From IMG/VR virus record IMGVR_UViG_3300030329_003773, positions 1-30,491 of that record: DNA of 30,491 nt; one strand, given 5' to 3'. The notes beneath the pieces were generated by a model. The model did not search any database and had not been told where the DNA came from. It saw only the letters and a program-made list of their open reading frames with translations. The DNA comes from a virus. Made by a program: the position numbers and the translations under genes. Position 1 is the stretch's first letter. The number at the start of each line of letters is the position of its first letter. This document shows positions 1,163-17,930 of the stretch, piece by piece.

Positions 1163-1851
1163 CGACAAAACTTAAAGCCGCGAACTTAAACGCGACTTAC
1201 TCTGCTGACCAAGTTCTAAAAACGTCTGCCGCTGGTGCTTTGTCCTGGGGTGAGGCTGGTGGTGGTTTTGATGATATGAAGGTTTGGACAACAAGCGAAA
1301 GTGGCTACCTGATACCCGCTGGCATAACCAAGGTGATATTTTTTGTCACTGGAGGTGGAGGCGGCGGTGCCGGAGCAAATGCCGCACTTGGAGCATCGGG
1401 TGGTGGCTCTGGCGGAACCGCAGTAAAAAAATTAGTCCTTGTTGGCGGTACAGATACGATTGACGTTACAGTTGCCGCGACTGCTAATGGGGGAGCGGCT
1501 GGTGCTGATGGAACGATAGGCAATGATTCGACAGTGGAATCAGCATCAGGGACTTCGTTTTCAGACATTATCGGGCCGGGAGGAAAACCCGGAAAATACG
1601 GTACAGCGACTATTGCACCAGCAACCGTAACAACTGGAGATCTAAACATCCCCGGTGGGGCTGGTGGGCCTGGAGGAATGGGCGGTGCTAGCTACTATGG
1701 ACAAGGCGGCAGCGGTGGTTACACGGCAGCGGTATCGTTGGCTGGTGTAGCGCCGGGGTCTGGTGGAGGCGGCGGATATCCTAGTGGGGCCACATATTAT
1801 CCCGGTGCCGCAGGTGCCGCTGGTGTTGTGGTCGCTTACCTTTTCAAGTAG
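1159..1851 (+). CDS. Glycine-rich tail fibre tip / adhesin, copy 2
   Basis: The protein has 230 residues and is a diverged partner of the protein at 156-869. It has the same order of parts: a short fibre-like N-terminus (KTSAAGALSWGEAGGG), a beta-rich middle with ITKVIFFVTGGGGGG, alternating Gly-rich loops and VxV strands, and a hydrophobic end (GVVVAYLF). Like copy 1 it probably forms a trimeric or collagen-like tip that touches the receptor. Having two in tandem suggests duplication and divergence, or one long and one short fibre. The start ATG overlaps the stop of the gene before it. Confidence 0.68.
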   Translation: MTTKLKAANLNATYSADQVLKTSAAGALSWGEAGGGFDDMKVWTTSESGYLIPAGITKVIFFVTGGGGGGAGANAALGASGGGSGGTAVKKLVLVGGTDTIDVTVAATANGGAAGADGTIGNDSTVESASGTSFSDIIGPGGKPGKYGTATIAPATVTTGDLNIPGGAGGPGGMGGASYYGQGGSGGYTAAVSLAGVAPGSGGGGGYPSGATYYPGAAGAAGVVVAYLFK

Positions 1852-1857
1852 CGCACT

Positions 1858-2232
1858 GTGAAAACCAAAGCACTCATCCTCGCAGCCGCATTCGCGGCTT
1901 TTTTTACGCCTACTGCCAACGCATTCTTCCCGCAAATCGTTCCGTTGCGGGCGCTGTGCGTTTCTGGTTCGCCAGAACCTCTGCTAATGAAACTGCTTGA
2001 GAAATACAACGAAGTTCCAAAATACACGATGCAGTTGACGGTTGATTCGCCCAAACCCATCTTAATGATTGTTACTGAGAACGAAAATAACCCAAGCAGT
2101 ACCGTGCTTCTTGTGAATCCAAATTTGAACATTAGTTGTGTCTTCTACACAGCCAAGGACACTCTCAAAGACACCGGTGCGAAAAGTCTGCCTGAAAAAA
2201 TGCCCCTAGAAGACGGGAAATTTGATGTCTGA
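1858..2232 (+). CDS. Secreted protein of unknown function
   Basis: A 124-residue protein starting at GTG. The N-terminus is a textbook Sec signal peptide: MKTK, a hydrophobic core (ALILAAAFAAFF) and a likely signal-peptidase I site after TANA (residue 22). The mature part of about 100 residues has two cysteines (residues 34 and 94) that could form a disulfide in the periplasm. I do not recognise a family. Export is unusual for a gene in a virion block and fits a periplasmic factor such as superinfection exclusion, lysis timing or lysogenic conversion, but this is only inference. The stop overlaps the next start. Confidence 0.6.
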   Translation: MKTKALILAAAFAAFFTPTANAFFPQIVPLRALCVSGSPEPLLMKLLEKYNEVPKYTMQLTVDSPKPILMIVTENENNPSSTVLLVNPNLNISCVFYTAKDTLKDTGAKSLPEKMPLEDGKFDV

Positions 2233-2482
2233 TGGAGATTGGAAGAAATCATCGGCCCTGGTCATCCTGAAAGTCGAGTGGCTTGATAGCTACACCGAAG
2301 GCGGGTGGTCTGAATACAAAACGGTGGATACCCTCACTACGACCTACGGAATTTATGTGGGAGAAAACGAGGATTTCCTTACTTTGGCGATGACTAAGGA
2401 AGAAGGTTATTGGGGTAATCAGTGGCACATCCCGATCCCGAACATCAAAGCAATCACAGTAATGAATCCCGCAGCCGAATAG
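2225..2482 (+). CDS. Small hypothetical protein
   Basis: An 85-residue protein (MSDGDWKKSSALVILKVEW...) overlapping the secreted-protein gene by 8 bases. A TTG three bases earlier is an alternative start. The sequence is rich in aromatic residues and alternates polar and hydrophobic residues as in a small beta-barrel. There is no signal peptide or membrane segment. I do not recognise it. It is kept as a gene because it fills the space exactly between two credible genes. Confidence 0.5.
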   Translation: MSDGDWKKSSALVILKVEWLDSYTEGGWSEYKTVDTLTTTYGIYVGENEDFLTLAMTKEEGYWGNQWHIPIPNIKAITVMNPAAE

Positions 2483-2491
2483 GTCTACTAT

Positions 2492-3256
2492 TTGCGTATC
2501 CTCGTAATCCCCGACACTCAGGTAAAGCCAGGTGTCCCCCTCGATCATTTTCGCTGGATAGCGAAGGCGATCAAACAATACAAGCCTACCCACGTTGTCC
2601 ACCTGGGAGATCATTGGGACTTCCCTAGTCTCAGCAGTTACAGCTCCCGCCTGGAAATCTCAACAGCAAGAGTCGTTGACGATATCGAGAGTGGCAACCG
2701 TGCCATGAAGTTGTTCTGGAAGACGCTTCGCGGCATGAAAGATCCCCCAGAATTCCATTTCTCATTCGGGAATCACGAAGAAAGGTTGCTCCGCTACATC
2801 GGGGACAACTTGATTCTTGAAAACTTTCTCTCTTTTGACAACCTCTTTCTGGATGGTTGGATAACCCACCCCTACCGTAGTCTTTATTCCCTCAACAACG
2901 TGTGGATCACCCATGCGTTTTTCCAAGAAAACACCGGTCGCCCGTTGGGTGGCACGGCACAGTCTGTGCTGATGCGAGTCGGACTATCTGGAATTCAGGG
3001 TCATCGCCAGGGCAAGCAGATTGCCCAACGAACCTTACCCAATCAGCAAGTTCAGCGAATGCTGATTTGCGGAAGTTGCTATTTGCATCAGGAAGCCTAT
3101 TTGGGCGAGATGGCGCGAGAAAACTGGCGCGGGATTGTGGTGTTGCATGATGTCGATGATGGCGATTACGACATGATGGAATTGAGCCTCAAATACCTCT
3201 GTCGCAAGTATGAAAAGGTCGAACTAAAGGACTTCAAGGAGAAGGTTTATGGGTAG
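2492..3256 (+). CDS. Calcineurin-like metallophosphoesterase
   Basis: The protein has 254 residues with a TTG start. The ordered metal-binding motifs of the family are visible: D-x-Q (residues 8-10, Gln replacing the usual His), GDHWD (39-43), GNHE (93-96), a His in ITHAF (141) and GHRQG (170-174). Such enzymes hydrolyse phosphodiesters or phosphomonoesters with two metal ions. Phage versions are often annotated as phosphoesterases of unknown substrate, sometimes related to the DNA exonuclease SbcD. It lies in the rightward block between tail genes and attP; the next gene begins inside its last codons. The substrate is unknown. Confidence 0.82.
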   Translation: MRILVIPDTQVKPGVPLDHFRWIAKAIKQYKPTHVVHLGDHWDFPSLSSYSSRLEISTARVVDDIESGNRAMKLFWKTLRGMKDPPEFHFSFGNHEERLLRYIGDNLILENFLSFDNLFLDGWITHPYRSLYSLNNVWITHAFFQENTGRPLGGTAQSVLMRVGLSGIQGHRQGKQIAQRTLPNQQVQRMLICGSCYLHQEAYLGEMARENWRGIVVLHDVDDGDYDMMELSLKYLCRKYEKVELKDFKEKVYG

Positions 3257-3422
3257 AGCAGCCGCGATAGCGGCTAAGTGTAAGGACTGTATTTACGATC
3301 CTTACGAAAAGGGTAGTTGGCGAAAACAGGTCGAAAACTGCCCTATACCTGACTGTGCGCTGTATCCATATAGACCCATGCCCGTAGGGTCTGAAAATAG
3401 CCAAAAAACGGGTCAAAAATGA
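3249..3422 (+). CDS. Small cysteine-rich (zinc-binding) protein
   Basis: A 57-residue protein overlapping the phosphoesterase gene by 8 bases. It contains KCKDCIYDP, then GSWRKQVENC and DCALYPYRP, giving a C-x2-C...C-x4-C pattern that would hold one zinc ion. Short proteins with this CxDCIYDP...WRxQVExC layout are widespread in temperate phages of proteobacteria, with no assigned function known to me. The stop codon overlaps an ATG that could extend the next gene upstream. Confidence 0.65.
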   Translation: MGRAAAIAAKCKDCIYDPYEKGSWRKQVENCPIPDCALYPYRPMPVGSENSQKTGQK

Positions 3423-3514
3423 ACAAACTGGCCCTCTTTTCACCGGATAGGTACGAGGCTGATCCGGCGAAACGGATTATCTCTTGTCCTGTCTCTTTCC
3501 AACAGGAGAATTCG

Positions 3515-3688
3515 ATGCCCTATACTGTCCCGCAATTCCAGAAAGATTATCTTGAAGCCAAAACCTTGAAGGAACAGGAAATCGCTTTGATAAGATTTGC
3601 GAGATCAAACGCAGCGGCATCCGATAGTCCTGAGACTTTCTACAAAATGGAGGAACGTCTTACCTCTATAAGAAAGAAGGAACACTGA
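3515..3688 (+). CDS. Small hypothetical helical protein
   Basis: A 57-residue helical, charged protein (MPYTVPQFQKDYLEA...). The ATG at 3515 is preceded by a good ribosome binding site (AGGAG, 7 bases upstream), which decides the start. The same frame stays open to an ATG at 3419 overlapping the upstream gene, so an 89-residue form cannot be excluded. It is the last gene before a terminator and attP, so it probably ends the rightward late transcript. No family recognised. Confidence 0.5.
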   Translation: MPYTVPQFQKDYLEAKTLKEQEIALIRFARSNAAASDSPETFYKMEERLTSIRKKEH

Positions 3689-3699
3689 AAAAATAAGTG

Positions 3700-3722
3700 G
3701 CGCTTTCTACGGCGCTTTTTTT
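3700..3722 (+). terminator. Probable terminator of the late operon
   Basis: A GCGC stem (3700-3703 with 3712-3715) around an 8-base loop is followed by seven T. It lies 12 bases after the last rightward gene. The stem is short, so efficiency is uncertain. A near copy of the segment (AGTGGCGCTTT...GGCGCTTTTTT) lies at 3941-3965 on the other side of attP. Confidence 0.5.
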
Positions 3723-3764
3723 AATAATATTTCCAAATAATGGTTTAAACAAGCCACCTGACCA

Positions 3765-3813
3765 CTGACTCTTAATCAGCGGGTCGCAGGTTCGATCCCT
3801 GCACGGCCCACCA
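3765..3813 (+). other. attP: attP core: 3' half of tRNA-Lys(CUU)
   Basis: These 49 bases are the anticodon arm, variable loop, T arm, 3' acceptor strand and encoded CCA of a tRNA. The anticodon stem CTGA/TCAG closes the loop CTCTTAA, giving anticodon CTT (lysine). The T arm is GCAGG-TTCGATC-CCTGC. The acceptor strand ACGGCCC has no partner, because the 40 or so bases upstream form neither a D arm nor a 5' acceptor strand, so this is not a working tRNA gene. A tRNA 3' end beside a tyrosine integrase is the classic attachment core: integration would restore the host tRNA-Lys gene. Phage genes on both sides indicate attP rather than attL or attR. Confidence 0.85.
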
Positions 3814-3863
3814 GTAAAAACCTAGTGTTTTCGCCACTTTCACACTAAATAAACCGCATAACT

Positions 3864-3887
3864 CCGCGCTTTTGCGCGGATTTTTTT
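3864..3887 (+). terminator. Rho-independent terminator after attP
   Basis: A perfect six-base-pair hairpin CCGCGC-TTTT-GCGCGG is followed by A and seven T. It lies about 50 bases downstream of the tRNA fragment and upstream of integrase. It would shield the integrase gene from late readthrough, and after integration it could serve as the terminator of the rebuilt host tRNA. Confidence 0.75.
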
Positions 3888-3944
3888 CTTTGTCTGAAAA
3901 GCCAGTAAAACCCACAGTCTGCTGTAATGTGTTACAAAGAAGTG

Positions 3945-3965
3945 GCGCTTTTTTGGCGCTTTTTT
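3945..3965 (+). terminator. Terminator-like repeat upstream of integrase
   Basis: GCGC (3945-3948) and GCGC (3956-3959) surround a T-rich loop and are followed by six T. The element nearly repeats the one at 3695-3722. It ends 45 bases before the chosen integrase start. It may be a weak terminator or, because AGTGGCG recurs around attP, part of an integrase arm site. Confidence 0.35.
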
Positions 3966-4009
3966 ATGGTAGTATGACCGCTGATTCACGATCAACGGTT
4001 TTTGAAAAC

Positions 4010-5344
4010 ATGAAATTAAGTCTTCAGAACATGAAGAATATGGAAGTTGGGAAAAGACAGTTTTTACAAGATAACCCGTCTGTCGAATGTGTGAAACTCA
4101 AGAGTGGGCAGATCAGTTTTAGGACGCGCTATACCATCTTAGGCAAGAGAAAGTATGCGTCGATATGTCGGTTTGATCCACAAAACACTGATGCGACTAT
4201 CACCGCTTTAAGGCACAAGATTAACGAGGTGCGAAATAAAATTGATCTAGGTGAAGACCCACAAGCTGAAAAACTGAAACGTGCAGCAGAGGTCGAAATA
4301 GACCGTGTAAGGGTAGAGAATCAGCGCACGATGGGTGAGGTAGCAGATGAGTGGTTGGAATGTGCTGTGATGAAGGGCGAGGGTCGTAAGCCTCCGCGCC
4401 AGAACAAGCCTCAGAAAGATACTCGTTTGGAATCAGCCGTTGTCTCAGACATGCCAGATCGCATGCGGGAAATTCCCATCGAGGAATTCACCAGGTCTGA
4501 TCTACTGGATATTGTCTTGCCTGTTTATAAAGAGCATCCGAACATGGGCAACAAGATCAAAGGATGTTATGTCCGAATTTTCAAGTTTGCCTGTAAGCAA
4601 CGAGACTACATTTCTCCATCCCACATGGCCGGTGTGACTGCTGATCTGCCAACGTATAAATCAACACCTCGCACGACAACATCCAAGGGTCGCCCCGCTA
4701 CGTTGTGGCAACCCAAACAGCGGGGTCTTTTGAAAGCATGGTTGGATGAATTCGACAGGTCTGATCTCTCTATAAGCCGAAAAGGTGCGCTTTATTTCGT
4801 TCTCCTGGGCCAGAGAAGAACGGAAACTTCCAAAATCCACATGGACAACATAGATGTGTCCGAAACTGGTGAGCGTGAGTGGTGGAATTTGTTGGATACT
4901 GAGACTAAGAACAACGAACCCCACCGGGTCTTTATCCCACCGTCATTCAGGAAGTATCTGGTGCATGAGAAGGGATGGGCATTCCCGTCCTCACAACGTG
5001 GGATTAAAACCAATCCACGGACGATCTACGGGGATTTCAAGGCAATAGCTGAAAGGGTTGGTCTTGGAGACTTCACCCTACATGACCTACGACGGACCTT
5101 CTCGACCTTCGTTTCTCTGAATTTTTCAGAAGAATTGATGCACCGGTTGACCAATCACAAACCTGATGGACTGACCAAAACCTACAGCGTGGCTGACCTG
5201 TATCGATATGATGACAAGAAGATCGAAATCTTCACAGCTTGGGAAAAAGAACTCGCCGCTATTCGTCGAGGTCAAGGTCAGAACGTCGTTTCATTCGTTT
5301 CCGGTTCATCCAATCAAAAATTTCTTTCTCAAGCCAGCCGGTAG
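4010..5344 (+). CDS. int: Tyrosine recombinase integrase
   Basis: The protein has about 444 residues from ATG 4010; an in-frame ATG at 3974 is an alternative, and both lack a strong ribosome binding site. The N-terminal part is an arm/core DNA-binding region with a basic helical linker. The catalytic domain shows Arg in GQRRTE (about 269), H-x-x-R in LHDLRRTF (about 358 and 361), His in LTNHK (about 383) and the nucleophilic Tyr in TKTYS (about 392), the full set for this family. It joins attP to a host tRNA-Lys gene by forming a 3' phosphotyrosine. Its gene lies 197 bases from the tRNA-derived core. The last 86 bases overlap the opposing excisionase gene. Confidence 0.93.
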   Translation: MKLSLQNMKNMEVGKRQFLQDNPSVECVKLKSGQISFRTRYTILGKRKYASICRFDPQNTDATITALRHKINEVRNKIDLGEDPQAEKLKRAAEVEIDRVRVENQRTMGEVADEWLECAVMKGEGRKPPRQNKPQKDTRLESAVVSDMPDRMREIPIEEFTRSDLLDIVLPVYKEHPNMGNKIKGCYVRIFKFACKQRDYISPSHMAGVTADLPTYKSTPRTTTSKGRPATLWQPKQRGLLKAWLDEFDRSDLSISRKGALYFVLLGQRRTETSKIHMDNIDVSETGEREWWNLLDTETKNNEPHRVFIPPSFRKYLVHEKGWAFPSSQRGIKTNPRTIYGDFKAIAERVGLGDFTLHDLRRTFSTFVSLNFSEELMHRLTNHKPDGLTKTYSVADLYRYDDKKIEIFTAWEKELAAIRRGQGQNVVSFVSGSSNQKFLSQASR

Positions 5345-5504
5345 CCCGTGGCCCAATTTTGATTCTGCGCGGGAAGGATCGATCAGTTTTTTCAAGAATG
5401 TAGGCGCGGCGGGTCGATATTATTCCCGTCGCCTTATACATATCGCCCGGTTTGATGCAAAGAACTGGCGAGGGTCGAATGGGTTCTTTTGATTTTCTTG
5501 GCAT
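5259..5504 (-). CDS. AlpA-family excisionase / regulator
   Basis: An 81-residue basic protein with the AlpA-type winged-helix pattern: a first helix, STRRAYILEKTDRSFPRRIKIGPRATGWLEKE with its FP and GW signature, then EIFDWMNRK. Such proteins bend DNA at the attachment site for excision or activate integrase. I chose ATG 5504 because AAAGGA lies just upstream; an earlier in-frame ATG at 5546 lacks a site. It is the last gene of the leftward operon and runs into the 3' end of integrase on the other strand, so the two messages are antisense to each other over 86 bases. Confidence 0.82.
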   Translation of the reverse strand: MPRKSKEPIRPSPVLCIKPGDMYKATGIISTRRAYILEKTDRSFPRRIKIGPRATGWLEKEIFDWMNRKRMKRRSDLDLDE

Positions 5505-5524
5505 AATTTTTCCTTTGGAGGTTT

Positions 5525-5559
5525 GTGAGGACTTCCAGGGGTCCACTGGAAGCCCTCAC
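5525..5559 (-). other. Strong inverted repeat upstream of excisionase
   Basis: GTGAGG-2-TTCCAG (5525-5538) pairs with CTGGAA-2-CCTCAC (5546-5559): twelve pairs interrupted by one 2x2 internal loop. It lies in the leader just upstream of the excisionase ribosome binding site. There is no T run, so it is more likely a processing or attenuation structure, or a protein-binding site, than a terminator. Confidence 0.6.
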
Positions 5560-5588
5560 CGTTAAGAAACGCCTTCTCCTTTGGTTGG

Positions 5589-5831
5589 TTAAAAGAAATC
5601 TTTCGCTGCTTGGCTCATCGGTGGATCGTCTTGTCGCTGGTCATCTTGGCGTTGACGTTTCAAGTTCCCGCCCAGGTAAGGATCACCCTTCTTTGAGACA
5701 CGATTCCACAGGTTATACTTCTGCTCCACTCCGTTCACGAAGACCGTAGCGTTGTAATCAGCGTCGGTTTCTTTGTTCTTGAAACCGTTTTTGAACACAG
5801 CTATCTCACCTTCTTTTTTGTCGTATGCCAT
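5589..5831 (-). CDS. Small hypothetical phage protein
   Basis: An 80-residue protein beginning MAYDKKEGEIAVFKNGFK. It has a compact beta-rich N-terminal part (EIAVFKN...ATVFVNGVEQKYNLW) and a charged, probably disordered tail rich in Q, R and D. The frame stays open to an ATG at 5915 overlapping the preceding gene, which would give 108 residues. I prefer 5831 because the extra segment is proline- and arginine-rich and less protein-like, but translational coupling would favour 5915. No function recognised. Confidence 0.55.
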   Translation of the reverse strand: MAYDKKEGEIAVFKNGFKNKETDADYNATVFVNGVEQKYNLWNRVSKKGDPYLGGNLKRQRQDDQRQDDPPMSQAAKDFF

Positions 5832-5898
5832 TGGCTTTTCTCTCACTGGTTGAAATCCATGTAATTTTCGATAGACGACTTCAGGTGGGTACAAGCCT

Positions 5899-6048
5899 CT
5901 AGGTATCCTCGGCATTGACCATCACCCAAAGCTGTCCATCAACCTTCAAAATAAACTCTCCCTTCTCATTCACTTTGCAATCTGCGTCCTCACGTTCACA
6001 GATAATCTCGATGACATATTCCCGAAACGTGTTGAGATCGCAGTCCAT
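5899..6048 (-). CDS. Small hypothetical protein
   Basis: A 49-residue acidic protein (MDCDLNTFREYVIEIICERED...) whose ATG overlaps the stop of the preceding gene (TGATG), so translation is coupled. It has three cysteines and a short beta-hairpin-like end (GEFILKVDGQLWVMV). It fills the space between two leftward genes exactly. No family recognised. Confidence 0.5.
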   Translation of the reverse strand: MDCDLNTFREYVIEIICEREDADCKVNEKGEFILKVDGQLWVMVNAEDT

Positions 6049-6254
6049 CAAAAAGGATCACCGTCATCGTTGTACGCAATTTGTTCTAGGTGAGGTTGGG
6101 GAATCTGTGGCAGTTGAAACCACTTTTGGGAATCAAGTGGCAGATGATCCTCGACGAATATGGTCCAGACGGTTGAATCGCTACATGTGCAAAAAACGCG
6201 ACCATCACTAACATGCAGTTGATCTATATATCGACGTTTTGATGGTGCTTTCAT
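6048..6254 (-). CDS. Small hypothetical protein
   Basis: A 68-residue protein (MKAPSKRRYIDQLHVSDG...) starting in an ATGA overlap with the exonuclease stop; an ATG 12 bases earlier is possible. The middle reads like a small beta-sheet (RVFCTCSDSTVWTIFVED). It may assist the exonuclease, as short genes coupled to phage exonucleases sometimes do, but nothing in the sequence shows this. Confidence 0.5.
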   Translation of the reverse strand: MKAPSKRRYIDQLHVSDGRVFCTCSDSTVWTIFVEDHLPLDSQKWFQLPQIPQPHLEQIAYNDDGDPF

Positions 6255-7027
6255 TTTTTTAACCATTCCTTCAGTTTGGCGCGAAAATCACGCTGATAGA
6301 CCAGTGATTTACAGTGGTCTTTGAGTTTGTCCGTGTATGGGAATGTCAAAACTTCAAACTGATCGCCTGGAATCTTCGGCAGACGAAATAGCCACAGAGA
6401 ATCAATCTTTTCCTGCAACGAATACTCCAGCGCCATCGCGTAAAGGCCAATCTGCGCGACATATTCAGCTTTGTGGATCGATTTAGCTGTCTTGAAGTCA
6501 CCTATCGCCTGTTTGCCGTTGATGCGAAATCTGAGATCCAGCGTCCCGGCATAATCAATATCTCCATCAGTCCAGTACACGATTTCTTCACTGGCGAGGT
6601 ATTCAGGGTTATTTTCCTTATCCCACTCAATGAACGGCATGACTGCATTTTTAAGGTCATCGTTCTTCGGGAGTTGGGGTTTTTTTCCTTCTCCTAATTT
6701 CCAGAGAACGAACTTTTCACAAAACCCATGACCGGCGTTTCCGAAATCAATCGCTTCTGTTGATTTCTTCCAAGGCGCACCACGAATCCGTTTCAGAATA
6801 TCGGGTAGCGTCAGCTCGTCCAGTTCAATTCGACCCTCGATCACATCTGTTAATTCTCTCTCCGCTTGGGCTTTACACATATTTCCAGCCCACGGGATTC
6901 GCCAACCATTCTCAGCGTCCTGGTCAGATATAGATGATGTGCCGTAACAGTTATCCCCATTCGCGTAGTAGCGATGCTTATCTGGATCAAACCGGATTTC
7001 AGTGTTGCGTATCGTTACTGTCTTCAT
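6251..7027 (-). CDS. PD-(D/E)XK exonuclease (RecB/Cas4-like)
   Basis: The protein has 258 residues. The nuclease motifs follow in order: GNAGHGFCEKF with His 100 and Glu 104, YAGTLD with the metal-binding Asp 164, GDFKT with Asp 177 and Lys 179, and the motif QIGLYA with Gln 192. This is the RecB-type fold used by phage recombination exonucleases and Cas4-like proteins, which resect double-stranded ends for annealing or replication. It sits in the leftward operon next to NinB- and YbcO-like genes, the usual company of a phage recombination module. No separate single-strand annealing protein is evident, so NinB may take part of that role. Confidence 0.82.
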   Translation of the reverse strand: MKTVTIRNTEIRFDPDKHRYYANGDNCYGTSSISDQDAENGWRIPWAGNMCKAQAERELTDVIEGRIELDELTLPDILKRIRGAPWKKSTEAIDFGNAGHGFCEKFVLWKLGEGKKPQLPKNDDLKNAVMPFIEWDKENNPEYLASEEIVYWTDGDIDYAGTLDLRFRINGKQAIGDFKTAKSIHKAEYVAQIGLYAMALEYSLQEKIDSLWLFRLPKIPGDQFEVLTFPYTDKLKDHCKSLVYQRDFRAKLKEWLKK

Positions 7028-7241
7028 TGTGAAAGTAGGCTTCCGTAACTAAGGTTTCGGGCAACTGTGTTTTGGTGGCGATGTTTCTAATCGCATCACG
7101 CATTGTTTTCTGATTAAAGAATTTGACGAATTCAGAGATGACATCAATCATCCCGTCACTTCGGGCGTATTCATTCATCAGCCGGTCGAATTCCTGATCG
7201 ACCTGATACCCAATGTCATCGTATGGATTAGAGTGTTGCAT
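6999..7241 (-). CDS. Small hypothetical protein between exonuclease and NinB genes
   Basis: An 80-residue acidic helical protein (MQHSNPYDDIGYQVDQEFD...). It overlaps the exonuclease gene by 29 bases downstream and the NinB gene by 14 bases upstream, so it is locked into the operon. No motif recognised; its place suggests a recombination accessory factor. Confidence 0.5.
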   Translation of the reverse strand: MQHSNPYDDIGYQVDQEFDRLMNEYARSDGMIDVISEFVKFFNQKTMRDAIRNIATKTQLPETLVTEAYFHNEDSNDTQH

Positions 7242-12458: not shown

Positions 12459-12671
12459 ATGCCCAAATTTTATGATGAGACAACCGGACAAATCGTTGAA
12501 TTGGATTTAGACGCTGACGATGTTGAATTCTTGGGGTATCGAGCCGTTGCACAGGTCAGTGACAGCGAGTGGGAATCTGCCCAAGATCCAGGTTGGTTGG
12601 AATCAGAGCGATTGCGGAAGACACGGGGCGAGATCCCGTGGGATTTCAGGTTCAAAGGGAGAAAACATTGA
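12459..12671 (+). CDS. Small acidic hypothetical protein
   Basis: A 70-residue protein (MPKFYDETTGQIVELDLDADD...) whose ATG directly follows a terminator T run. It is acidic at the start and basic at the end (FRFKGRKH). It begins like many small phage proteins that describe a target sequence plus a processing tail, but I recognise no family. Its stop overlaps the TTG of the next gene. Confidence 0.5.
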   Translation: MPKFYDETTGQIVELDLDADDVEFLGYRAVAQVSDSEWESAQDPGWLESERLRKTRGEIPWDFRFKGRKH

Positions 12672-12841
12672 GTCATCTTAGTGACCGGGGACAGAACTAC
12701 TTCCAGCATTTTTGGTCTGGTATCAGTGTCGCCGGTCAACTGGCTTACCTGGCCGTGACCGTGACGGTCCACGCTTTCATGCCTTGGGTGCTGAAAACAA
12801 CAACCAGCGACCATCTGAAGCGAATAATCGACAAAATTTAG
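12668..12841 (+). CDS. Small membrane protein, DUF6356-like
   Basis: A 57-residue protein from TTG in a TTGA overlap. It contains QNYFQHFWSGISVAGQLAYLAVTVTVHAFMPWVLKTTTSDHLKRI, which matches the pattern of DUF6356 proteins: a Y-F-x-H start, one hydrophobic helix, HA-x-x-P and a final T-x-S-x-x-L-x-x-I. It should sit in the inner membrane with one segment. The function of this family in phages is unknown to me. The frame remains open upstream to 12569 inside the previous gene, but coupling favours 12668. Confidence 0.6.
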   Translation: MSHLSDRGQNYFQHFWSGISVAGQLAYLAVTVTVHAFMPWVLKTTTSDHLKRIIDKI

Positions 12842-12843
12842 GC

Positions 12844-12867
12844 AAAAAAAAGCCCCCCGAAGGGGGC
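12844..12867 (-). terminator. Terminator of the leftward accessory operon
   Basis: Read on the minus strand, GCCCCC-TTCG-GGGGGC forms a perfect stem with a UUCG-type tetraloop and is followed by eight T. It lies ten bases after the last leftward gene. On the plus strand no T run follows, so it mainly stops leftward transcription. Confidence 0.9.
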
Positions 12868-12877
12868 GTGACTGGCA

Positions 12878-13489
12878 TTAGTGACCCGCTGGATCGAAGT
12901 TATCCAACCGTTCATAGAAGGGTGATGTGTAACTCACCTCGGTTTCATAACCCTCCAAGATGCTTTCGATCTGTTCACCGATTTCACTTTTGAAGTCATC
13001 GTATAACTCGATGTCAGCAAATGCGGTAGAGGATGGATCATTTTCCAGCAGTTCGGAAACTGCAACACTGCGGGAGTCATCAAATAGGGTGACTTGAATC
13101 ACTGGCTCATTGCCAGTTTCGACAAGTTTCCCGCCATCATTGAAGTACACATTTGAGAACGGGTCATCCTCAACGGTGAAAGGATCATCCAGAAACTTGT
13201 GAGAATTTAGCGCTTTGAAAAATGCGCCATAAGTCTCTGCGCGTTCTTTGCATCGGATGAAAAATTCCTTGAAATCGTACTCAACGATCAAATTTTGCAT
13301 GGTGAACCGCATCACATCTTGAACCTTTCCGTTCAATGTTTTTTGTCGGCTCAGTTTCCCGATATCCCTTAACTCATTTTCGTGGTCAAGATGTTCGGCA
13401 ACGTAATGGGTGAGGTCACGGACAGTCGATTGATAGGCTTCGGCGCGCCCGTCGGGGTGGTGTGTTTCACAAATAAAAATTTCAGTCAT
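12878..13489 (-). CDS. Acidic hypothetical protein
   Basis: A 203-residue protein. The first half is mixed and helical; the second half (about residue 95 on) is strongly acidic, with stretches such as LDDPFTVEDDPFS and SEIGEQIESILEGYETE and very few Lys or Arg. Such charge distribution recalls DNA-mimic anti-restriction proteins, but no fold can be assigned. It is the last gene of the leftward operon and overlaps the ribbon-helix-helix gene by 4 bases. Confidence 0.6.
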   Translation of the reverse strand: MTEIFICETHHPDGRAEAYQSTVRDLTHYVAEHLDHENELRDIGKLSRQKTLNGKVQDVMRFTMQNLIVEYDFKEFFIRCKERAETYGAFFKALNSHKFLDDPFTVEDDPFSNVYFNDGGKLVETGNEPVIQVTLFDDSRSVAVSELLENDPSSTAFADIELYDDFKSEIGEQIESILEGYETEVSYTSPFYERLDNFDPAGH

Positions 13490-13686
13490 GGTTTACCCTC
13501 CAATAGTGAGTTAAGTTTAGCAACATTGCTTTTGGCTTGCTTCTTGTAATCATCAGAAACAAGAAACGCATTTACAGCTTGATCGACAAATGATGAAACG
13601 GAGCGACCCGTTAAGGCCGCCCCTTGTTTAATCCCGTTAGACAGTTCGGGGGTTACTCGCATATTCAAAACTTCGGTTTTTTTCAT
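13486..13686 (-). CDS. Ribbon-helix-helix DNA-binding protein
   Basis: A 66-residue protein with VLNMRVTPELSNGIKQGAALTGRSVSSFVDQAVNAFL, the strand, helix and helix of an Arc/MetJ-type dimer, where the N-terminal strand reads DNA bases. Such proteins act as repressors or antitoxins. It overlaps genes on both sides by 4 bases, so if it is an antitoxin its partner would be the acidic protein downstream; more simply it is a regulator of this operon or of the late region. Confidence 0.72.
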   Translation of the reverse strand: MKKTEVLNMRVTPELSNGIKQGAALTGRSVSSFVDQAVNAFLVSDDYKKQAKSNVAKLNSLLEGKP

Positions 13687-13871
13687 CGTTCTGCCCTCTT
13701 GTGATCTGAAAGTTGCTTGTGGAAACTTTCGATGGCGTTTCTACAAACTCTTGCGGCGGCCCATTCTTTCCACATCTCCTTATTTTCAATGTAAAGAACT
13801 GAACCTTCGTTCATCATGTCGAAAATTTCCTCGGCTTGGCGAACAGTAAATTCCAGTTTGATTTTGCTCAT
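13683..13871 (-). CDS. Small hypothetical helical protein
   Basis: A 62-residue charged helical protein (MSKIKLEFTVRQAEEIFDMMNEGS...) in 4-base overlaps with both neighbours. No motif beyond an amphipathic helix. It may partner the ribbon-helix-helix protein encoded next. Confidence 0.55.
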   Translation of the reverse strand: MSKIKLEFTVRQAEEIFDMMNEGSVLYIENKEMWKEWAAARVCRNAIESFHKQLSDHKRAER

Positions 13872-13963
13872 GGCAAACCTCCCGCCGGAAAGGCAAACTG
13901 GAACACGTTAAGGAACAACAGGAAAAGCGCAAAAAGCGCCCATAAATCAGCTTTGGTTTTCAT
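13868..13963 (-). CDS. 31-residue membrane peptide
   Basis: MKTKADLWALFALFLLFLNVFQFAFPAGGLP has a basic N-terminus and a single hydrophobic segment. It starts in an ATGA overlap with the gene before it and ends in an ATGA overlap with the gene after it, so it is very probably translated. Phages use such peptides to disturb or sense membranes; its role here is unknown. Confidence 0.5.
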   Translation of the reverse strand: MKTKADLWALFALFLLFLNVFQFAFPAGGLP

Positions 13964-14181
13964 GCTAACGCCTCCACCTGGGGGGTGACGGTCTTACTCT
14001 TGTCATCCTCCTCGATGTGGACATATCCGACGGTGTTTCCATTTATGTCGATTAACTTCTCGGGAAAAACGCCCTCGTCTATTCGTTCAGAGAGTTTTCG
14101 CAAAATTCGCGCTACTTCTTCATTCAGACAGTCTTCAAAAGCGGCGTTGCGAGTGTCAATTAGCAGTCTTATTCCTTTCAT
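13960..14181 (-). CDS. Small hypothetical protein
   Basis: A 73-residue protein (MKGIRLLIDTRNAAFEDCLNEEVARIL...) of helix-then-strand character, resembling small phage proteins that carry an acidic tail (HIEEDDKS). It is the first of a run of five genes joined by 4-base overlaps. No family recognised. Confidence 0.55.
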   Translation of the reverse strand: MKGIRLLIDTRNAAFEDCLNEEVARILRKLSERIDEGVFPEKLIDINGNTVGYVHIEEDDKSKTVTPQVEALA

Positions 14182-14208
14182 TTCATAATCTCCAAAAAAG
14201 TGAATTGA

Positions 14209-14235
14209 GAAAGAGACTGAGAAAAGCGCCGTTGC
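14209..14235 (-). repeat. Left arm of inverted repeat pair around 14251-14631
   Basis: These 27 bases are complementary to 14645-14671 at 25 of 27 positions. In the leftward RNA one mismatch is a G.U wobble, the other U.U. The arm ends 15 bases after the stop of the enclosed gene. Confidence 0.8.
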
Positions 14236-14250
14236 TGTTGTTGTGATTTG

Positions 14251-14631
14251 TTAGGATATTTTCAGTGATTGCAGTTGGTCAGGTGAAAGTGAAATATGCA
14301 GGTTTTGCACTTTCGAATGACTGTCTAAACGGTAAGGCCCGTGTTGGCCTACCCTGTCAGCCCCTAAATCATCGGCAAAGATGTTGCCACGGACGCCGTT
14401 TTTAACTGGCCCCGTTGCTCCACCTTTTAGAATGTCGCCGTTTTCCATGTTCACAAAACTGTGGACACAACTTTGACCGGCGTTACAGAGCATAACTCTC
14501 GCGTACTTTTTGCGGATTTCTGCTTTAACTCGTTTTTTTCCAAGTTTGTGATAACCCAGTAGACCGTGGTCGCATTTGTCCACTTTTTCTTGAATCATCT
14601 CAACATACTGATCTAAGCGTTTTTCTATCAT
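14251..14631 (-). CDS. Conserved-looking hypothetical protein, unit 5 of the cassette array
   Basis: A 126-residue protein. The centre, KYARVMLCNAGQSCVHSFVNMENGDILKGG followed by GVRGNIF, matches a pattern I know from small proteins of other phages that share the ...HSFV...GDI.K...RGNIF layout, without known function. It lies in an inverted-repeat-bounded unit of the leftward operon, separated from its neighbours by 70-80 bases of non-coding sequence, unlike the tightly overlapped genes after it. Confidence 0.62.
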   Translation of the reverse strand: MIEKRLDQYVEMIQEKVDKCDHGLLGYHKLGKKRVKAEIRKKYARVMLCNAGQSCVHSFVNMENGDILKGGATGPVKNGVRGNIFADDLGADRVGQHGPYRLDSHSKVQNLHISLSPDQLQSLKIS

Positions 14632-14644
14632 CGTATTACCTCCT

Positions 14645-14699
14645 GCAACGGCGCTTATCTCAGCCTCTTTCGTGGTGAAATAGGCTGAAATAACCCGCC
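14645..14699 (-). repeat. Back-to-back repeat arms between units 5 and 4
   Basis: 14645-14671 is the right arm of the pair around 14251-14631; 14677-14699 is the left arm of the pair around 14713-15075. They are five bases apart. The two arms also resemble each other in inverted orientation, so they can form a local imperfect hairpin of about 20 pairs (14649-14700), an alternative to the two long-range stems. Confidence 0.8.
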
Positions 14700-14712
14700 G
14701 ATGCTGTTGTAG

Positions 14713-15075
14713 TTAATACTCTGAGGGTGTCATCACGGTTAAACCGCCACGCTCATTCGCGGCAATGAACACCTCTCCCGCAATGGTGTGGTCCAGTGTG
14801 ATGATTGAACCCTCTGATAGTTTCCTGTGATTTTTGGGTACTTGCGCTTGCATAATGACATCCATCAGAAAAGGGATCGTGACCTGATCGAACGTTCGAG
14901 CCTTATCGCTTGTCCGAAGGTCTGCCGTTTCGCAAGCTGCCGTGACATCTGCCGACATAAACAAATTTGGCCAGCGTTCTGGGTAGGGTTCTGTCAAAAC
15001 CCCATCCTCTAACGCTGTTTCTGTGGTGTACTCATAAATTGCATTTCCGAAAACTTCGTGCATCGAATTGGTCAT
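14713..15075 (-). CDS. DUF6573-like protein, unit 4 of the cassette array
   Basis: A 120-residue protein. The start, VFGNAIYEYTTETALEDGVLTE, matches the pattern of DUF6573 phage proteins (F-G-x-x-I-x-x-YT-x-x-x-A-x-x-DGVL). The family is common in phages and plasmids and has no known role; its position in accessory regions suggests counter-defence or host takeover. The gene has its own ribosome binding site (GGAGGTTTTC before ATG) and is enclosed by a 23-base inverted repeat pair. Confidence 0.68.
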   Translation of the reverse strand: MTNSMHEVFGNAIYEYTTETALEDGVLTEPYPERWPNLFMSADVTAACETADLRTSDKARTFDQVTIPFLMDVIMQAQVPKNHRKLSEGSIITLDHTIAGEVFIAANERGGLTVMTPSEY

Positions 15076-15093
15076 AAGAAAACCTCCCGCACT

Positions 15094-15144
15094 GGCGGGT
15101 TATCTCAGCCTATTTCGTTCCAGTGGACTGTTTTAGACCGCCTC
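15094..15144 (-). repeat. Back-to-back repeat arms between units 4 and 3
   Basis: 15094-15116 pairs with 14677-14699 (22 of 23; the exception is a G.U wobble in the leftward RNA). 15120-15144 pairs with 15510-15534 (23 of 25; one G.U, one U.U). The two arms are three bases apart. Confidence 0.82.
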
Positions 15145-15156
15145 GGTTGATGGTTG

Positions 15157-15489
15157 TTAATCCATGTAATTAGCGTAAACGGGAGTTCCGTCCCACTTCG
15201 ACATAAAAGCGTGGCCGCTCTTGAAACAGTCGCCAGTTGCCTCGGAGGTTTTTATCCTCGCGCGGCATTCTGGTTTTTCTGCTGAGTCAGGGGAAGAAGT
15301 CACCCGCTCAAACTCCACGGGAAACATGGGTGTTTCCTCTCCCATGTCAAAAGCGCGGTTCTTCTTGATTTCTCTAAACCAAACGGTTTTGGCGGTTCGC
15401 CGCGTAACAATAGCGAACACGGGGATTGTCATACTGTATCCCCAAATACCGTAAGCAATATCGCCAACATTTAATGTTTTGTCTGTCAT
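15157..15489 (-). CDS. Hypothetical protein, unit 3 of the cassette array
   Basis: A 110-residue protein from ATG 15489, chosen because GGAGG lies nine bases upstream; the frame stays open to 15531 inside the repeat arm. The first half (GDIAYGIWGYSMTIPVFAIVTRRTAKTVWFREI) looks like an SH3- or beta-barrel-type small domain found in phage accessory proteins; the rest is loop-rich. Function unknown. It is enclosed by a 25-base inverted repeat pair. Confidence 0.62.
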   Translation of the reverse strand: MTDKTLNVGDIAYGIWGYSMTIPVFAIVTRRTAKTVWFREIKKNRAFDMGEETPMFPVEFERVTSSPDSAEKPECRARIKTSEATGDCFKSGHAFMSKWDGTPVYANYMD

Positions 15490-15509
15490 TTCTAAGCCTC
15501 CAAAAAAAA

Positions 15510-15561
15510 GAGGCGATCTAAAACAGACCACTGGATCCTAGCGGATTTAATAGGCGTGACT
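15510..15561 (-). repeat. Back-to-back repeat arms between units 3 and 2
   Basis: 15510-15534 is the right arm of the pair around 15157-15489. 15537-15561 is the left arm of the pair around 15575-16315 and matches the complement of 16333-16357 at 23 of 25 positions (one G.U wobble, one U.C in the leftward RNA). They are two bases apart. Confidence 0.82.
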
Positions 15562-15574
15562 CTCCCGGTTAAAG

Positions 15575-16315
15575 TTAATTAAGTAGTCCGGCAGAACGTC
15601 CACCGATTTGAGTGTTAAGAGATATACCGGCACCGTAGGATTTCCCGGCTTGGTATCCTTGATAACTGCGGGAATTGCTCCCGCTCCCGCGTCTAACGTG
15701 TGGGTGTTGCCTGTGGTAGAATGACAGGACATCAGCCATTTGTTTTTTGTCTTGATCCACTAAAACCATTGCCTGATGGTGGCTTAAATTTTCGCCGTCT
15801 ATCTGACCGCGCCGTCGTGCCGCCAGTATGGTTTTGACATTGGCAAAAACAGCACTCGCCGCGCCATTACCAAATGACGTGTTGAAGGATCGACGGTTGA
15901 TAACCTCACCAATTCCCAAATGGTTATCAAATGCGCGTGGCATTTCCCGCTTGATTGATGCGATAACGTATTCAGCCATTGCCACGGATATATCAACCCG
16001 CGACGAGTGACCAATAACCATCACGATCTTTTTGCTGGTATTGCGTAGACATTTGCAACCGTTCAACTTAGCAACTGCCGAATAAACGACAGCTTGCCAG
16101 ATTGCACCGGTTAGGCTTTTCTGACCTTCGGTTAGTTCGCCCAATTCTTCGCGCTGTTCGGCTTCGGATAACTCCACTATCGAAAGGTTGTGCTTTGCCA
16201 TCATCGCGTTTGCCTGACGTAAAGCAATCTCGCGCTCATGTTCGTTATCGTTGCGGTCCTTATCGGCCCGTGCTAACAGCGCTTGGATTTTGCGTATCAG
16301 ATTTTCTCGTTGCAT
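15575..16315 (-). CDS. DUF2786-domain protein, unit 2 of the cassette array
   Basis: A 246-residue protein from ATG 16315, chosen for GGAGGGA just upstream. The N-terminal 40 residues (LIRKIQALLARADKDRNDNEHEREIALRQANAMMAKHNLS) are a clear DUF2786 domain. The middle and end (WQAVVYSAVAKLNGC, VMVIGHSS, FGNGAASAVFANVK) follow the companion domain usually fused to it. The tail is Gly/Ser/Arg rich. The family is widespread in phages and plasmids, with no firmly known activity. It is enclosed by a 25-base inverted repeat pair. Confidence 0.75.
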   Translation of the reverse strand: MQRENLIRKIQALLARADKDRNDNEHEREIALRQANAMMAKHNLSIVELSEAEQREELGELTEGQKSLTGAIWQAVVYSAVAKLNGCKCLRNTSKKIVMVIGHSSRVDISVAMAEYVIASIKREMPRAFDNHLGIGEVINRRSFNTSFGNGAASAVFANVKTILAARRRGQIDGENLSHHQAMVLVDQDKKQMADVLSFYHRQHPHVRRGSGSNSRSYQGYQAGKSYGAGISLNTQIGGRSAGLLN

Positions 16316-16332
16316 GATTCCCTCCAATGGGA

Positions 16333-16381
16333 AGTCACGCCGATTAAACCCGCTAGGTTGAGAGCGATTAATAGAACCGCC
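16333..16381 (-). repeat. Back-to-back repeat arms between units 2 and 1
   Basis: 16333-16357 is the right arm of the pair around 15575-16315. 16360-16381 is the left arm of the pair around 16392-16807 and matches the complement of 16828-16849 at 20 of 22 positions (one G.U wobble, one U.C). They are two bases apart. Confidence 0.82.
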
Positions 16382-16391
16382 GGTTAAATGG

Positions 16392-16538
16392 TTACAGCGG
16401 GAAAAATAACAGACCAATAAAAAAGCCTAGGGTTGCACCTAACAGACCGCCTGCTAGTGCTAGACCTAGGGTGTGCCGGTTAAAAGGGGTATCGCAATCC
16501 ATGCCCTTTTCCCATTGGTTGAGAATGAATGCTTTCAT
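16392..16538 (-). CDS. Small membrane protein with glycine zipper, unit 1
   Basis: A 48-residue protein: a 28-residue polar head with MKAFILNQWEKG, then one membrane segment LGLALAGGLLGATLGFFIGLLFF in which glycines recur every four residues, a packing motif of membrane oligomers. The ATG overlaps the stop of the preceding gene (ATGA), so the two are made together and share one inverted-repeat-bounded unit. Confidence 0.6.
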   Translation of the reverse strand: MKAFILNQWEKGMDCDTPFNRHTLGLALAGGLLGATLGFFIGLLFFPL

Positions 16539-16807
16539 AATTGCACCGTTTGACTGATATGGAAAAGGGCGGTTGGCCTAAAGAATTTTTTCCCGGTTTT
16601 CTTATCCTTAAGAAAATTCGGTACTTTACAAATACACTTTGAACCCTTCGCCGGTACTCGACCAATATCAACCCATGCTTTAAACGGTAAGACGTTTTTA
16701 CGCGGTTGGATTTCGTCAAATGGTATTCCTGCTTTCAGACACGCATCGATAACAATCTGTTCGTTACGTGCTGATACGCCGCGAATAGCGCTGTTGTAAT
16801 GTTCCAT
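16535..16807 (-). CDS. ArdC-like single-strand-binding domain protein, unit 1
   Basis: A 90-residue protein, first gene of the leftward accessory operon, with GGAGGTTT upstream of its ATG. The run PFKAWVDIGRVPAKGSKCICKVPNFLK, then FRPTALFHISQT, follows the N-terminal domain of ArdC anti-restriction proteins (F-x-x-W...GR-x-V-x-KG...FH-x-SQT), which binds single-stranded DNA. No metalloprotease domain follows. If correct, an early anti-defence role would fit an accessory operon. Confidence 0.5.
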   Translation of the reverse strand: MEHYNSAIRGVSARNEQIVIDACLKAGIPFDEIQPRKNVLPFKAWVDIGRVPAKGSKCICKVPNFLKDKKTGKKFFRPTALFHISQTVQL

Positions 16808-16827
16808 TAGTTAAACCTCCAAAGTTT

Positions 16828-16849
16828 GGCGGTTCGACTAATCGCTCTC
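16828..16849 (-). repeat. Right arm of inverted repeat pair around 16392-16807
   Basis: Pairs with 16360-16381 at 20 of 22 positions. It lies 20 bases upstream of the first leftward start, so the ribosome binding site (16813-16819) is inside the closed loop. It is the promoter-proximal end of the repeat array. Confidence 0.8.
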
Positions 16850-16855
16850 GTTTTG

Positions 16856-16917
16856 AACCGGTGCGGGATATGACCGTCTGCCGGTTGCTAGGGTTGCCGT
16901 GATCGTTTGGCCCTAGC
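16856..16917 (-). other. Two adjoining stem-loops in the leader of the leftward operon
   Basis: AACCGG (16856-16861) pairs with CCGGTT (16881-16886), and directly next to it GCTAGGG (16887-16893) pairs with CCCTAGC (16911-16917). They lie in the untranslated leader between the leftward promoter and the first repeat-bounded unit, continuing the pattern of abutting stems. Confidence 0.55.
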
Positions 16918-16990
16918 GCCTCGGAACATCGCCTGCAAGTGGGCGGTGCCTAACTCAACCAATGCTTCCTTCCCAACTCCACTAGGGCGA

Positions 16991-17019
16991 ACAGTAAACG
17001 AAAGGTTTACTCAAGTCAA
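16991..17019 (-). promoter_or_regulatory. Promoter of the leftward accessory operon
   Basis: On the minus strand TTGACT (17014-17019), a 17-base spacer and TACTGT (16991-16996) form a good sigma-70-type promoter. It would yield a leader of about 175 bases. The -35 overlaps the tandem repeat at 17018-17047. Confidence 0.65.
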
Positions 17020-17047
17020 CCATAGTGAACCATAGCGAATCAGAGTG
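17018..17047. repeat. Three tandem 10-base repeats, operator-like
   Basis: AACCATAGTG, AACCATAGCG and AATCAGAGTG stand head to tail from 17018 to 17047, starting at the -35 of the leftward promoter. The 10-base period places each copy on the same face of the helix. The first 16 bases recur at 7877-7892. Confidence 0.65.
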
Positions 17048-17450
17048 GTGCGTATGGGTTTGTATTGGGTGATGTGATGTGGTGATCGGGTTACTAGAAA
17101 CCGGTCCCCGCATGGCCGTTTTCACACGGCATGTTCCCGGTTCCCCGGTTCGGGGTTGGGGGGAGTGCTTGAACTGACCGGTTCGAACCGAATGGCGCAC
17201 GGTTGGCGCTGTTGTTGGGCTGATGCCTTCAAAGCCTAGCCATTGTCACGCTGACCCGCTGATACTGAATCAGCCGTTGGTTGCCCTGGCCTGGATTATG
17301 GCGATCCAGGGCAGTTTATAAGCCTTTGAAATCAATAAGTTACGCTCAAAACCTCTAGGAAGACAAGAGCTTCGTGACGTAAGCGAGGGCGGCCCCCCAC
17401 CCCCCCGGCAGCGTTAGCGTTATTCCATCACATACATCTCACGAAACCAC
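17048..17450 (+). other. Non-coding region before the terminase genes; possible packaging site
   Basis: Over 400 bases without a convincing gene. It holds a perfect 12-base palindrome CGGTTCGAACCG (17179-17190), hairpins GCCGT/ACGGC near 17113 and CCCCG/CGGGG near 17141, GCCCTGG/CCAGGGC (17283-17289 with 17306-17312), a GTGAT repeat at about 17070, and a very C-rich tract (17390-17408). Non-coding DNA right before the small terminase gene is the usual place for cos or pac. A rightward late promoter must also be here, but I find no convincing one. Confidence 0.4.
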
Positions 17451-17930
17451 ATGGACAAATCAATCGGACCAGATGGCGTATCAGCCAATGAAAGGAACTT
17501 CGTAAAGGAGTATCTGAAGCATGGGAATGCGAGGCAAGCCTATTTGAACGTGTTTGCCTGTTCCAAGAACACCGCTGCCAAATCCAGCAAGGCGATGATG
17601 AAAAGGCCAAGGGTTCGTGAGTACATGCGTATCCAGATGGAGAAGATCGACAAGGAGGAGTTGCGTCACGCGACGGTAGACAAATCCAAGGTGATGTATG
17701 ACCTGGATACCTTGCGGGAGATTGCGGTACGGGAAAGGCAGTTAGGACCAGCGGTAAGGGCCACGGAGTTAATGGGCAAGGAATTGGGGATGTTCAGAGA
17801 GAGAACAGATATCTCTGTGCATAAGGTATCGGACGAAGCACTGATTCAAGCCATATCCACTCAGGATGAATCTTTGGGGTCGGAACTGGCAAGGGTGCTG
17901 AACATCGATGACTACAAGGTGGCAAGTTAG
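17451..17930 (+). CDS. terS: Terminase small subunit
   Basis: A 159-residue protein. The N-terminal domain follows the small-terminase pattern: ANERNFVKEYLKHGNARQAYLNVFACSKNTAAKSSKAMMKRPRVREYM, a helix-turn-helix that binds the packaging site. The helical rest (residues 60-159) would form the oligomer ring. It recognises phage DNA and passes it to the large subunit, encoded 1.7 kb downstream. It is the first gene of the late block. Confidence 0.82.
   Translation: MDKSIGPDGVSANERNFVKEYLKHGNARQAYLNVFACSKNTAAKSSKAMMKRPRVREYMRIQMEKIDKEELRHATVDKSKVMYDLDTLREIAVRERQLGPAVRATELMGKELGMFRERTDISVHKVSDEALIQAISTQDESLGSELARVLNIDDYKVAS

Follow-up and report, generated by a model that had tools for sequence, protein, structure and literature searches.

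Consecutive genes of a viral operon are enclosed one by one in private inverted repeats that may act as closing stems of the messenger RNA

Why should consecutive genes of one viral operon each be enclosed by an inverted repeat of their own? The question is raised by positions 14209-16849 of a 30.5 kb stretch of viral DNA, the whole of which was analysed here and is referred to as the window. Five leftward units follow one another in this region, and each is surrounded by a private inverted repeat of 22-27 bp. The original prediction for this DNA offered two readings, namely that each gene is cut out as its own closed RNA unit or that the units are exchangeable and end at the repeats, or both. 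The analysis described below supports this statement in part, and each of the two readings found some support.

The arms were located by inverted-repeat search and their coordinates were refined with G.U pairs allowed. All features of the array lie on the minus strand. In unit 5, the 5′ arm (22 nt, 16828..16849) precedes two overlapping genes, the first of which (16535..16807) encodes 90 aa with 41% identity to an ArdC-N-like protein from a unit of the related lineage L012, and the second (16392..16538) 48 aa; the 3′ arm (16360..16381) pairs with 16828-16849 at a mean probability of 0.95 in a 2.8 kb transcript. Unit 4 comprises a 5′ arm of 26 nt (16332..16357), a gene for a DUF2786/DUF7168 protein of 246 aa (phrog_421; 15575..16315) and a 3′ arm (15537..15562) that pairs with 16332-16357 at a probability of 0.90. 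The genes of units 3 (15157..15489, 110 aa) and 2 (14713..15075, 120 aa) have no assigned function. The former lies between a 5′ arm of 26 nt (15510..15535) and its partner at 15119..15144 (pairing probability 0.96), the latter between a 5′ arm of 23 nt (15094..15116) and its partner at 14677..14699 (0.999). Finally, the 5′ arm of unit 1 (27 nt, 14645..14671) and its 3′ arm (14209..14235; pairing probability 0.90) enclose a gene for 126 aa with a weak match to DUF7717 / phrog_10383 (14251..14631). The end-to-end tiling is as predicted; the gaps between adjoining arms are 5, 2, 1 and 2 nt from unit 1 to unit 5, that is 1-5 nt and not the 2-5 nt given before.

When the whole window was searched independently for inverted repeats, all five pairs came out among the best matches, and a stricter scanner yielded exactly these five as the strongest inverted repeats of the 30.5 kb. 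Their scores were 21, 20, 20, 19 and 16. In 100 dinucleotide shuffles of the whole window the best score per shuffle was at most 16, a value reached once, and the five inverted repeats are thus not due to chance. The two scans and the shuffles confirm the five privately enclosed units. The arms of different units are private in sequence and share a loose layout with a variable outer part, an A/U-rich middle and a CGCC-like inner end, but they are not all unrelated: some are clearly cousins, e.g. those of window units 1 and 2 (W1/W2) and those of unit 3 and of unit C of lineage L018 (W3/L018-C).

Upstream of the first stem, an alignment delimits a leader of the leftward operon (16850..16965, minus strand), in which the motif GGTTGNGTTAGGCACC (at 16945) is common to all four lineages that carry such arrays. 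The leader folds no better than shuffled sequences (z -0.8 to 0.4), and therefore no claim is made for its structure. No Rfam family matched within 13400-17500, and the leftward strand showed no sigma-70-like promoter. Four more genes of the operon (12878..14181, minus strand) follow the array in leftward orientation and have no arms, and a wobble-permitting stem scan of this stretch gave nothing comparable to the array stems. An intrinsic terminator-like site (12852..12867, minus strand) closes the operon; terminator-like matches in the operon region numbered 14 versus 6.0 in shuffles.

Three related virus lineages (L008/L007, L018 and L012) have arrays built in this way, mostly from other genes and arms; with the window included, four lineages provide 13 stems. 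In the syntenic relative L014 the operon is free of arms throughout. Since arms are missing there and from the four 3′ genes of the window operon, the feature is dispensable in related phages. The remaining phage and prophage DNA examined, about 2.2 Mb, lacks the architecture, and none of 50,697 phage records gave a DNA match to 12500-17500. A pattern search with the leader motif returned the same lineages and two unrelated contigs (L087, L089), and one with the W3/C arm type returned six contigs that have no array and, with both arms, L018 again. No further array-bearing lineage came from searches that used the upstream gene, the small terminase or the cassette proteins. Tiled stems were likewise absent from about 77 loci with a DUF7249-type gene and from the four cultured relatives inspected (RHph_N2, VPp1, EXVC032P and CF418P1), and no arrays were present in 15 stretches around terminase matches in genomes that all came from the class of an Alphaproteobacteria MAG. 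Isolated long inverted repeats at other places were examined and discounted, among them that of L209, which resembles two similar terminators.

The pairing itself carries several marks of selection. Across the 13 stems, read as leftward RNA, 320 positions comprise 295 Watson-Crick pairs, 20 G.U pairs, 3 UU and 2 CU mismatches and not one A.C; each of the five window stems contains G.U and none contains A.C, in line with the G.U wobbles first noticed there. The sense stem is more stable than its antisense counterpart in 13 of 13 cases, by 6.2 kcal/mol on average. Between related arms, 14 two-sided compensatory changes were counted (simulated mean 3.8) together with 10 changes from Watson-Crick to G.U, and pair-breaking changes, in which a pair is lost or gained, numbered 4 versus 23.5 in simulations; none of 5000 simulations with independent changes reached either the compensatory or the pair-breaking value. 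The arms have thus not diverged without compensation. In global folds of 1.9-2.8 kb transcripts from the three long arrays, all 12 stems formed with mean pairing probabilities of 0.90-0.999. Cognate arms gave duplex energies of -35 to -48 kcal/mol, non-cognate arms mostly weaker than -21 and at most -30 kcal/mol, and in the window the adjoining arms at junctions gave about -10 to -28 kcal/mol versus -35 to -47 kcal/mol for cognate arms. These comparisons show selection on pairing in the leftward strand, as predicted, which is best explained as acting in RNA; the strand asymmetry alone would be the same for RNA and for leftward-sense single-stranded DNA and cannot tell the two apart.

The position of the stems relative to the genes is also regular. 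A linker of 8-15 nt separates the last stop codon from the 3′ arm in all 13 units, and G makes up 4% of it, compared with 22% in the stretches that follow other stops (p = 4e-12 in a binomial test with the array composition as reference). In 11 of 13 units the distance from the 5′ arm inwards to the start codon is 13-22 nt, usually with a Shine-Dalgarno-like (SD-like) site in between and hence outside the stem; gene and ribosome binding site are enclosed together, as originally noted. In the D units of L008 and L018 only 4 nt lie between the arm and the first start codon called, and this call is uncertain.

Sequence comparison between the lineages indicates that units are swapped at the arms between phages. 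Units B and D are neighbours in L008, and L018 has unit C inserted exactly in the spacer between them. The L008 genome is a mosaic, and its change from L018-like to window-like DNA is no more than 4 nt away from the outermost arm. Moreover, unit 3 of the window and unit C of L018 have one arm type around unrelated genes. These boundaries respect the arms; an extra gene in unit B of L018 was added inside the loop and not at a junction.

We consider it rather probable that the arms are closing stems of a leftward mRNA which individualise each cistron and are probably cut by host RNase III. The operon would be transcribed as one polycistronic RNA, on which each 5′ arm, just upstream of the Shine-Dalgarno site, would pair with its own 3′ arm, so that every cistron or small gene group forms a separate closed loop, and private arm sequences would keep the loops from cross-pairing. 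Because the loop ends lie just outside a ribosome at the start and the stop codon, the stem could stand during translation. A perfect RNA duplex of 22-27 bp is a good RNase III substrate, and the most likely consequence would be that host RNase III cuts each stem and frees monocistronic messages, whose 5′ and 3′ ends would remain paired in a stub and so be protected, as in the release of pre-16S and pre-23S rRNA. As a local intergenic hairpin would be enough for RNase III, the long-range design calls for an additional reason, which may be end sealing or loop closure. With each cistron closed by its own stem, units would be self-contained and could be acquired, dropped or exchanged singly. A reading in which each gene stands on its own as an RNA-closed unit that can be exchanged, and whose private stem both individualises the message by cutting or loop closure and defines the traded module, has in our estimate about an even chance of being correct.

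An unlikely alternative is that the stems stay intact and bring the stop and the start of each gene side by side, about 30 nt apart by way of the stem. Terminating ribosomes would then re-initiate on the gene just read, and neighbours would be insulated. In favour of such loops, the spacings at start and stop just clear a ribosome on both sides and the G-poor linker after the stop is unlikely to fold; however, the near-perfect duplexes would have to escape RNase III, and a stem that merely has to form on translated RNA before cutting would be expected to have this spacing too. Transcription control, with adjoining arms between units as pause, termination or antitermination signals, is very improbable. 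The stems span 0.3-1.1 kb and are ill-suited to a signal that acts as the polymerase makes one arm, and the partly conserved leader ahead of the array, which together with the excess of terminator-like matches speaks for such control, folds no better than shuffles.

Other readings place the function of the arms in DNA. Units might be excised as circles, in which the two arms would meet and fold, on the leftward-sense single strand, into a hairpin (about 25 bp, loop of 1-5 nt); a recombinase would join such sites, roughly in the manner of integron integrase at attC. This is improbable, although the insertion of unit C, the L008 switch point, the shared arm type around unrelated genes and the integron-like look of compact co-oriented units all fit it. 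Exchange at the arms would also result if only complete units were functional, the gene added to unit B of L018 sits inside the loop, the G-poor, ribosome-length linker would have no role, and no recombinase is tied to the array: the sole integrase found, at 3872-5344, is of the ordinary phage kind and matches an arm-binding domain weakly. Integron attC sites proper were rejected, as they require a junction hairpin and complementarity here runs across the gene with weak pairing at the window junctions; the boxes RYYYAAC and GTTRRRY, read by eye, are not conserved at junctions, and GTTRRRY fits only isolated ones, e.g. A/B of L018. The chance that the arms are double-stranded sites in inverted orientation, bound by a DNA-binding protein or, as in pdif modules, by a site-specific recombinase, is slighter than that of any other reading. 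Arms of 22-27 nt in inverted orientation around modules, with a loose common layout, would suit such sites, but the 20 leftward G.U pairs with no A.C and the private sequences with two-sided compensation would be left without reason. The pdif/Xer modules themselves were dismissed, as they need a fixed recombinase-binding sequence at all sites and the arms differ between units and match only within a unit.

If the preferred reading of closing stems is true, each message of a phage operon is enclosed by itself and probably matured by itself as well, which would provide a natural design rule for insulated multi-gene transcripts and a concrete reason for the one-at-a-time swapping of phage accessory genes. 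It would also offer a clean bacterial system for finding out whether messages live longer, or ribosomes are re-used more, when the ends are sealed or the loop is closed.

Individually stem-enclosed units are known for ribosomal RNA, and we know of no description for messenger RNA or protein-coding genes. The RNase III sites of T7 early messages are local hairpins between genes. The early messages of T7-type phages resemble the array as polycistronic phage messages with double-stranded elements between genes; in the array, however, the arms pair across their own gene and those meeting at a junction pair much less well. CALIN arrays are cassette arrays without an integron integrase. Integron cassettes occur in phages (PMC9892861), and like phage CALIN arrays they share with the present array compact co-oriented genes, private imperfect repeats of constant layout, gain or loss of single units and strand-specific pairing. 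In contrast, an attC site folds between genes, as a hairpin that carries GTTRRRY/RYYYAAC boxes, while the pairing described here spans the gene. No integron integrase was found, but CALIN arrays lack one in any case. In the icaR mRNA of Staphylococcus aureus, the 5′ and 3′ UTRs pair and form an RNase III substrate (PMC3868564), and the two ends of one message thus meet as they do, by sequence and folding, in the array; the icaR pairing covers the Shine-Dalgarno site to repress, whereas the array stems of 22-27 bp leave it free and are tiled. In bacteria, the processing stems of rRNA consist of inverted repeats with RNase III sites in them (PMC7038931). Pre-16S and pre-23S rRNA, processed by RNase III, and the archaeal bulge-helix-bulge stems have in common with the array several units per transcript, each with its own long-range stem and a loop of hundreds of bases or more. 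The array differs in that its loops hold ORFs with SD-like sites and no rRNA, its near-perfect helices contain no bulge-helix-bulge motif, and the cutting of its stems by RNase III is a presumed step. A closable private stem for each gene suggests that the phage cuts or insulates every message separately, much as cells carve out their ribosomal RNAs.

The window belongs to a tailed phage whose record of 30,491 bases was found to contain terminase and integrase genes, and because of these genes the phage is probably temperate. A row of leftward genes is placed between rightward genes, which end at about position 12841, and the rightward small terminase gene at 17451. The leftward row ends at a terminator-like site (12852-12867, leftward) and its upstream part is formed by an array of five units (14209-16849, leftward). 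Every unit has its own enclosing inverted repeat (22-27 bp), whose arms are complementary to each other only, and adjoining arms of successive units are spaced by 1-5 nt. These repeats are the best five inverted repeats in the window, and an equally good one was almost never produced by shuffled window sequences. Adjoining the integrase gene, ACCACTGACTCTTAATCAGCGG at 3761-3782 resembles the anticodon part of tRNA-Lys and is a possible candidate for the attachment core; no complete tRNA was detected in the window by ARAGORN.

Relatives with the array were found via a terminase search of IMG/VR. The same architecture is present in the contigs L008 (units A, B and D; 5443-7207), with its near-copy L007, L018 (units A, B, C and D; 1182-3937) and L012 (one complete unit; 152-777), where a second unit has apparently begun, with 5′ arm and gene start, before the contig ends; the sample comprises only four lineages, two of them short fragments. 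The syntenic relative L014 carries leftward genes at the equivalent place, with stems absent even when G.U pairs were permitted. No tiled stem chains were found in further loci of 1.76 Mb and 0.49 Mb, including four cultured relatives, nor in L006, where the protein of unit 4 has a homologue (53%). Relatives of the DUF7249 protein of L008 unit D (6716-7003) are encoded by hundreds of viral contigs; among the best 80, those outside the array-bearing group had no such stems. In Achromobacter phage CF418P1 (35269-36972), a lone imperfect 40-nt inverted repeat (33/40 matched) encloses about 1.6 kb of leftward genes, with mixed mismatches and without tiling.

In the leftward strand, the 320 positions of the 13 stems comprise 295 Watson-Crick pairs, 20 G.U, 0 A.C and 5 pyrimidine-pyrimidine oppositions. 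Since the stem scanner scores G.U and A.C equally as mismatches, detection is biased to neither. When positions of orthologous units were taken once and one end pair resulting from extension was excluded, 16 G.U stood against 0 A.C (2^-16, about 1.5e-5, if strand were irrelevant), and the sense duplex was stronger than the antisense duplex in 13/13 stems. Between related arms, pairing was retained in 14 pairs altered two-sidedly (simulated mean 3.8) and 10 altered one-sidedly (9.3), and a pair was lost or gained 4 times (23.5); these comparisons are partly between non-orthologous units (W1/W2, W3/C), so that not all changes are orthologous events. With identical substitutions put down independently, none of 5000 simulations reached the observed 14 two-sided or 4 pair-breaking or -gaining changes. 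Judged from these sequence patterns, pairing is under selection in the leftward strand.

Minimum-energy folds of the entire leftward transcripts (2801, 1931 and 2841 nt) contained all 12 stems, with mean pairing probabilities of 0.90-0.999 per stem. Cognate arm duplexes reached -35 to -48 kcal/mol, the best non-cognate ones -30.3 (B and D of L008) and -27.7 kcal/mol (W1/W2), and most others were weaker than -21; by these predicted energies the arms are orthogonal to each other. Upstream of the first stem lies a leader (window 16850-16965; L008 7208-7322; L018 3938-4009; L012 778-869) with the motif GGTTGNGTTAGGCACC in 4/4 lineages and ACTATCAAC in three of the four. The leaders of the window and L008 are far more diverged than the adjoining 98% identical DNA.

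L008 is mosaic. From its position 7211 (window 16853) onward it is 98% identical to the window, and its positions 4745-7207 match L018 at 75-83%, this match ending at 7207, the final base of the outermost arm. Units B and D adjoin directly in L008, and in L018 unit C is placed precisely in the spacer that separates them. Within the loop of L018 unit B, an extra gene of 171 aa (2103-2618) lies immediately behind the 5′ arm, at the site that in L008 unit B provides SD and start codon for the unit's own gene. The arms of W3 and L018 unit C are closely related (42/50 positions), and no credible similarity was found between their enclosed proteins. On these observations the units behave as modules whose content is changeable within the arms too. 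When the window is compared with L008, the variable gene row has its left boundary (window 12866, L008 4308) inside the terminator hairpin, so that the terminator may serve as the second point of exchange. The units may carry anti-defence genes, since the window protein at 16535-16807 is 41% identical to an L012 protein (449-733) with weak similarity (just under the Pfam cut-off) to the N-terminal domain of ArdC, an anti-restriction factor.

DNA cassette mobility remains as a rival explanation of the array. The strand bias alone fits RNA as well as single-stranded DNA of leftward sense. In 13/13 units, the final stop codon is followed by a linker of 8-15 nt before the 3′ arm; it contains 4% G, 43% A and 36% C, compared with 22% G in the 12 nt following the phage's other stop codons; a near-G-free linker makes sense for RNA, not for double-stranded DNA. 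Inside the loop, 13-22 nt separate the 5′ arm from the first start codon in 11/13 units, mostly with an SD-like sequence between them; the two departing units are D units, whose start call is uncertain. Given the size of ribosome footprints, such spacings spare the stem during initiation and termination. An uncut closed loop allowing ribosome re-use and insulation likewise remains as a rival. The favoured reading is that the arms are closing stems of the leftward message. Inverted-repeat stems enclosing bacterial rRNAs commonly bear RNase III sites (PMC7038931), and in the bacterial icaR mRNA, whose ends are paired, RNase III cuts at the paired region (PMC3868564). By analogy with these, the near-perfect stems of 22-27 bp would be expected to be cut by RNase III in most bacterial hosts, and we infer that cutting would free single-gene messages with paired ends.

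Membership of known classes was ruled out for T7-type sites (the pairing is not local), integron arrays (the pairing extends across the gene and boxes are not conserved), pdif modules (the fixed site is absent) and rRNA processing stems (the enclosed units hold no rRNA). In open-access text searches, which were far from exhaustive, no description was found of protein-coding genes arrayed with a private long-range stem for each. Any novelty is that of the arrangement, and each biochemical step proposed here would be already known. The known system most alike in working is the rRNA operon, with its own inverted-repeat stem round each rRNA.
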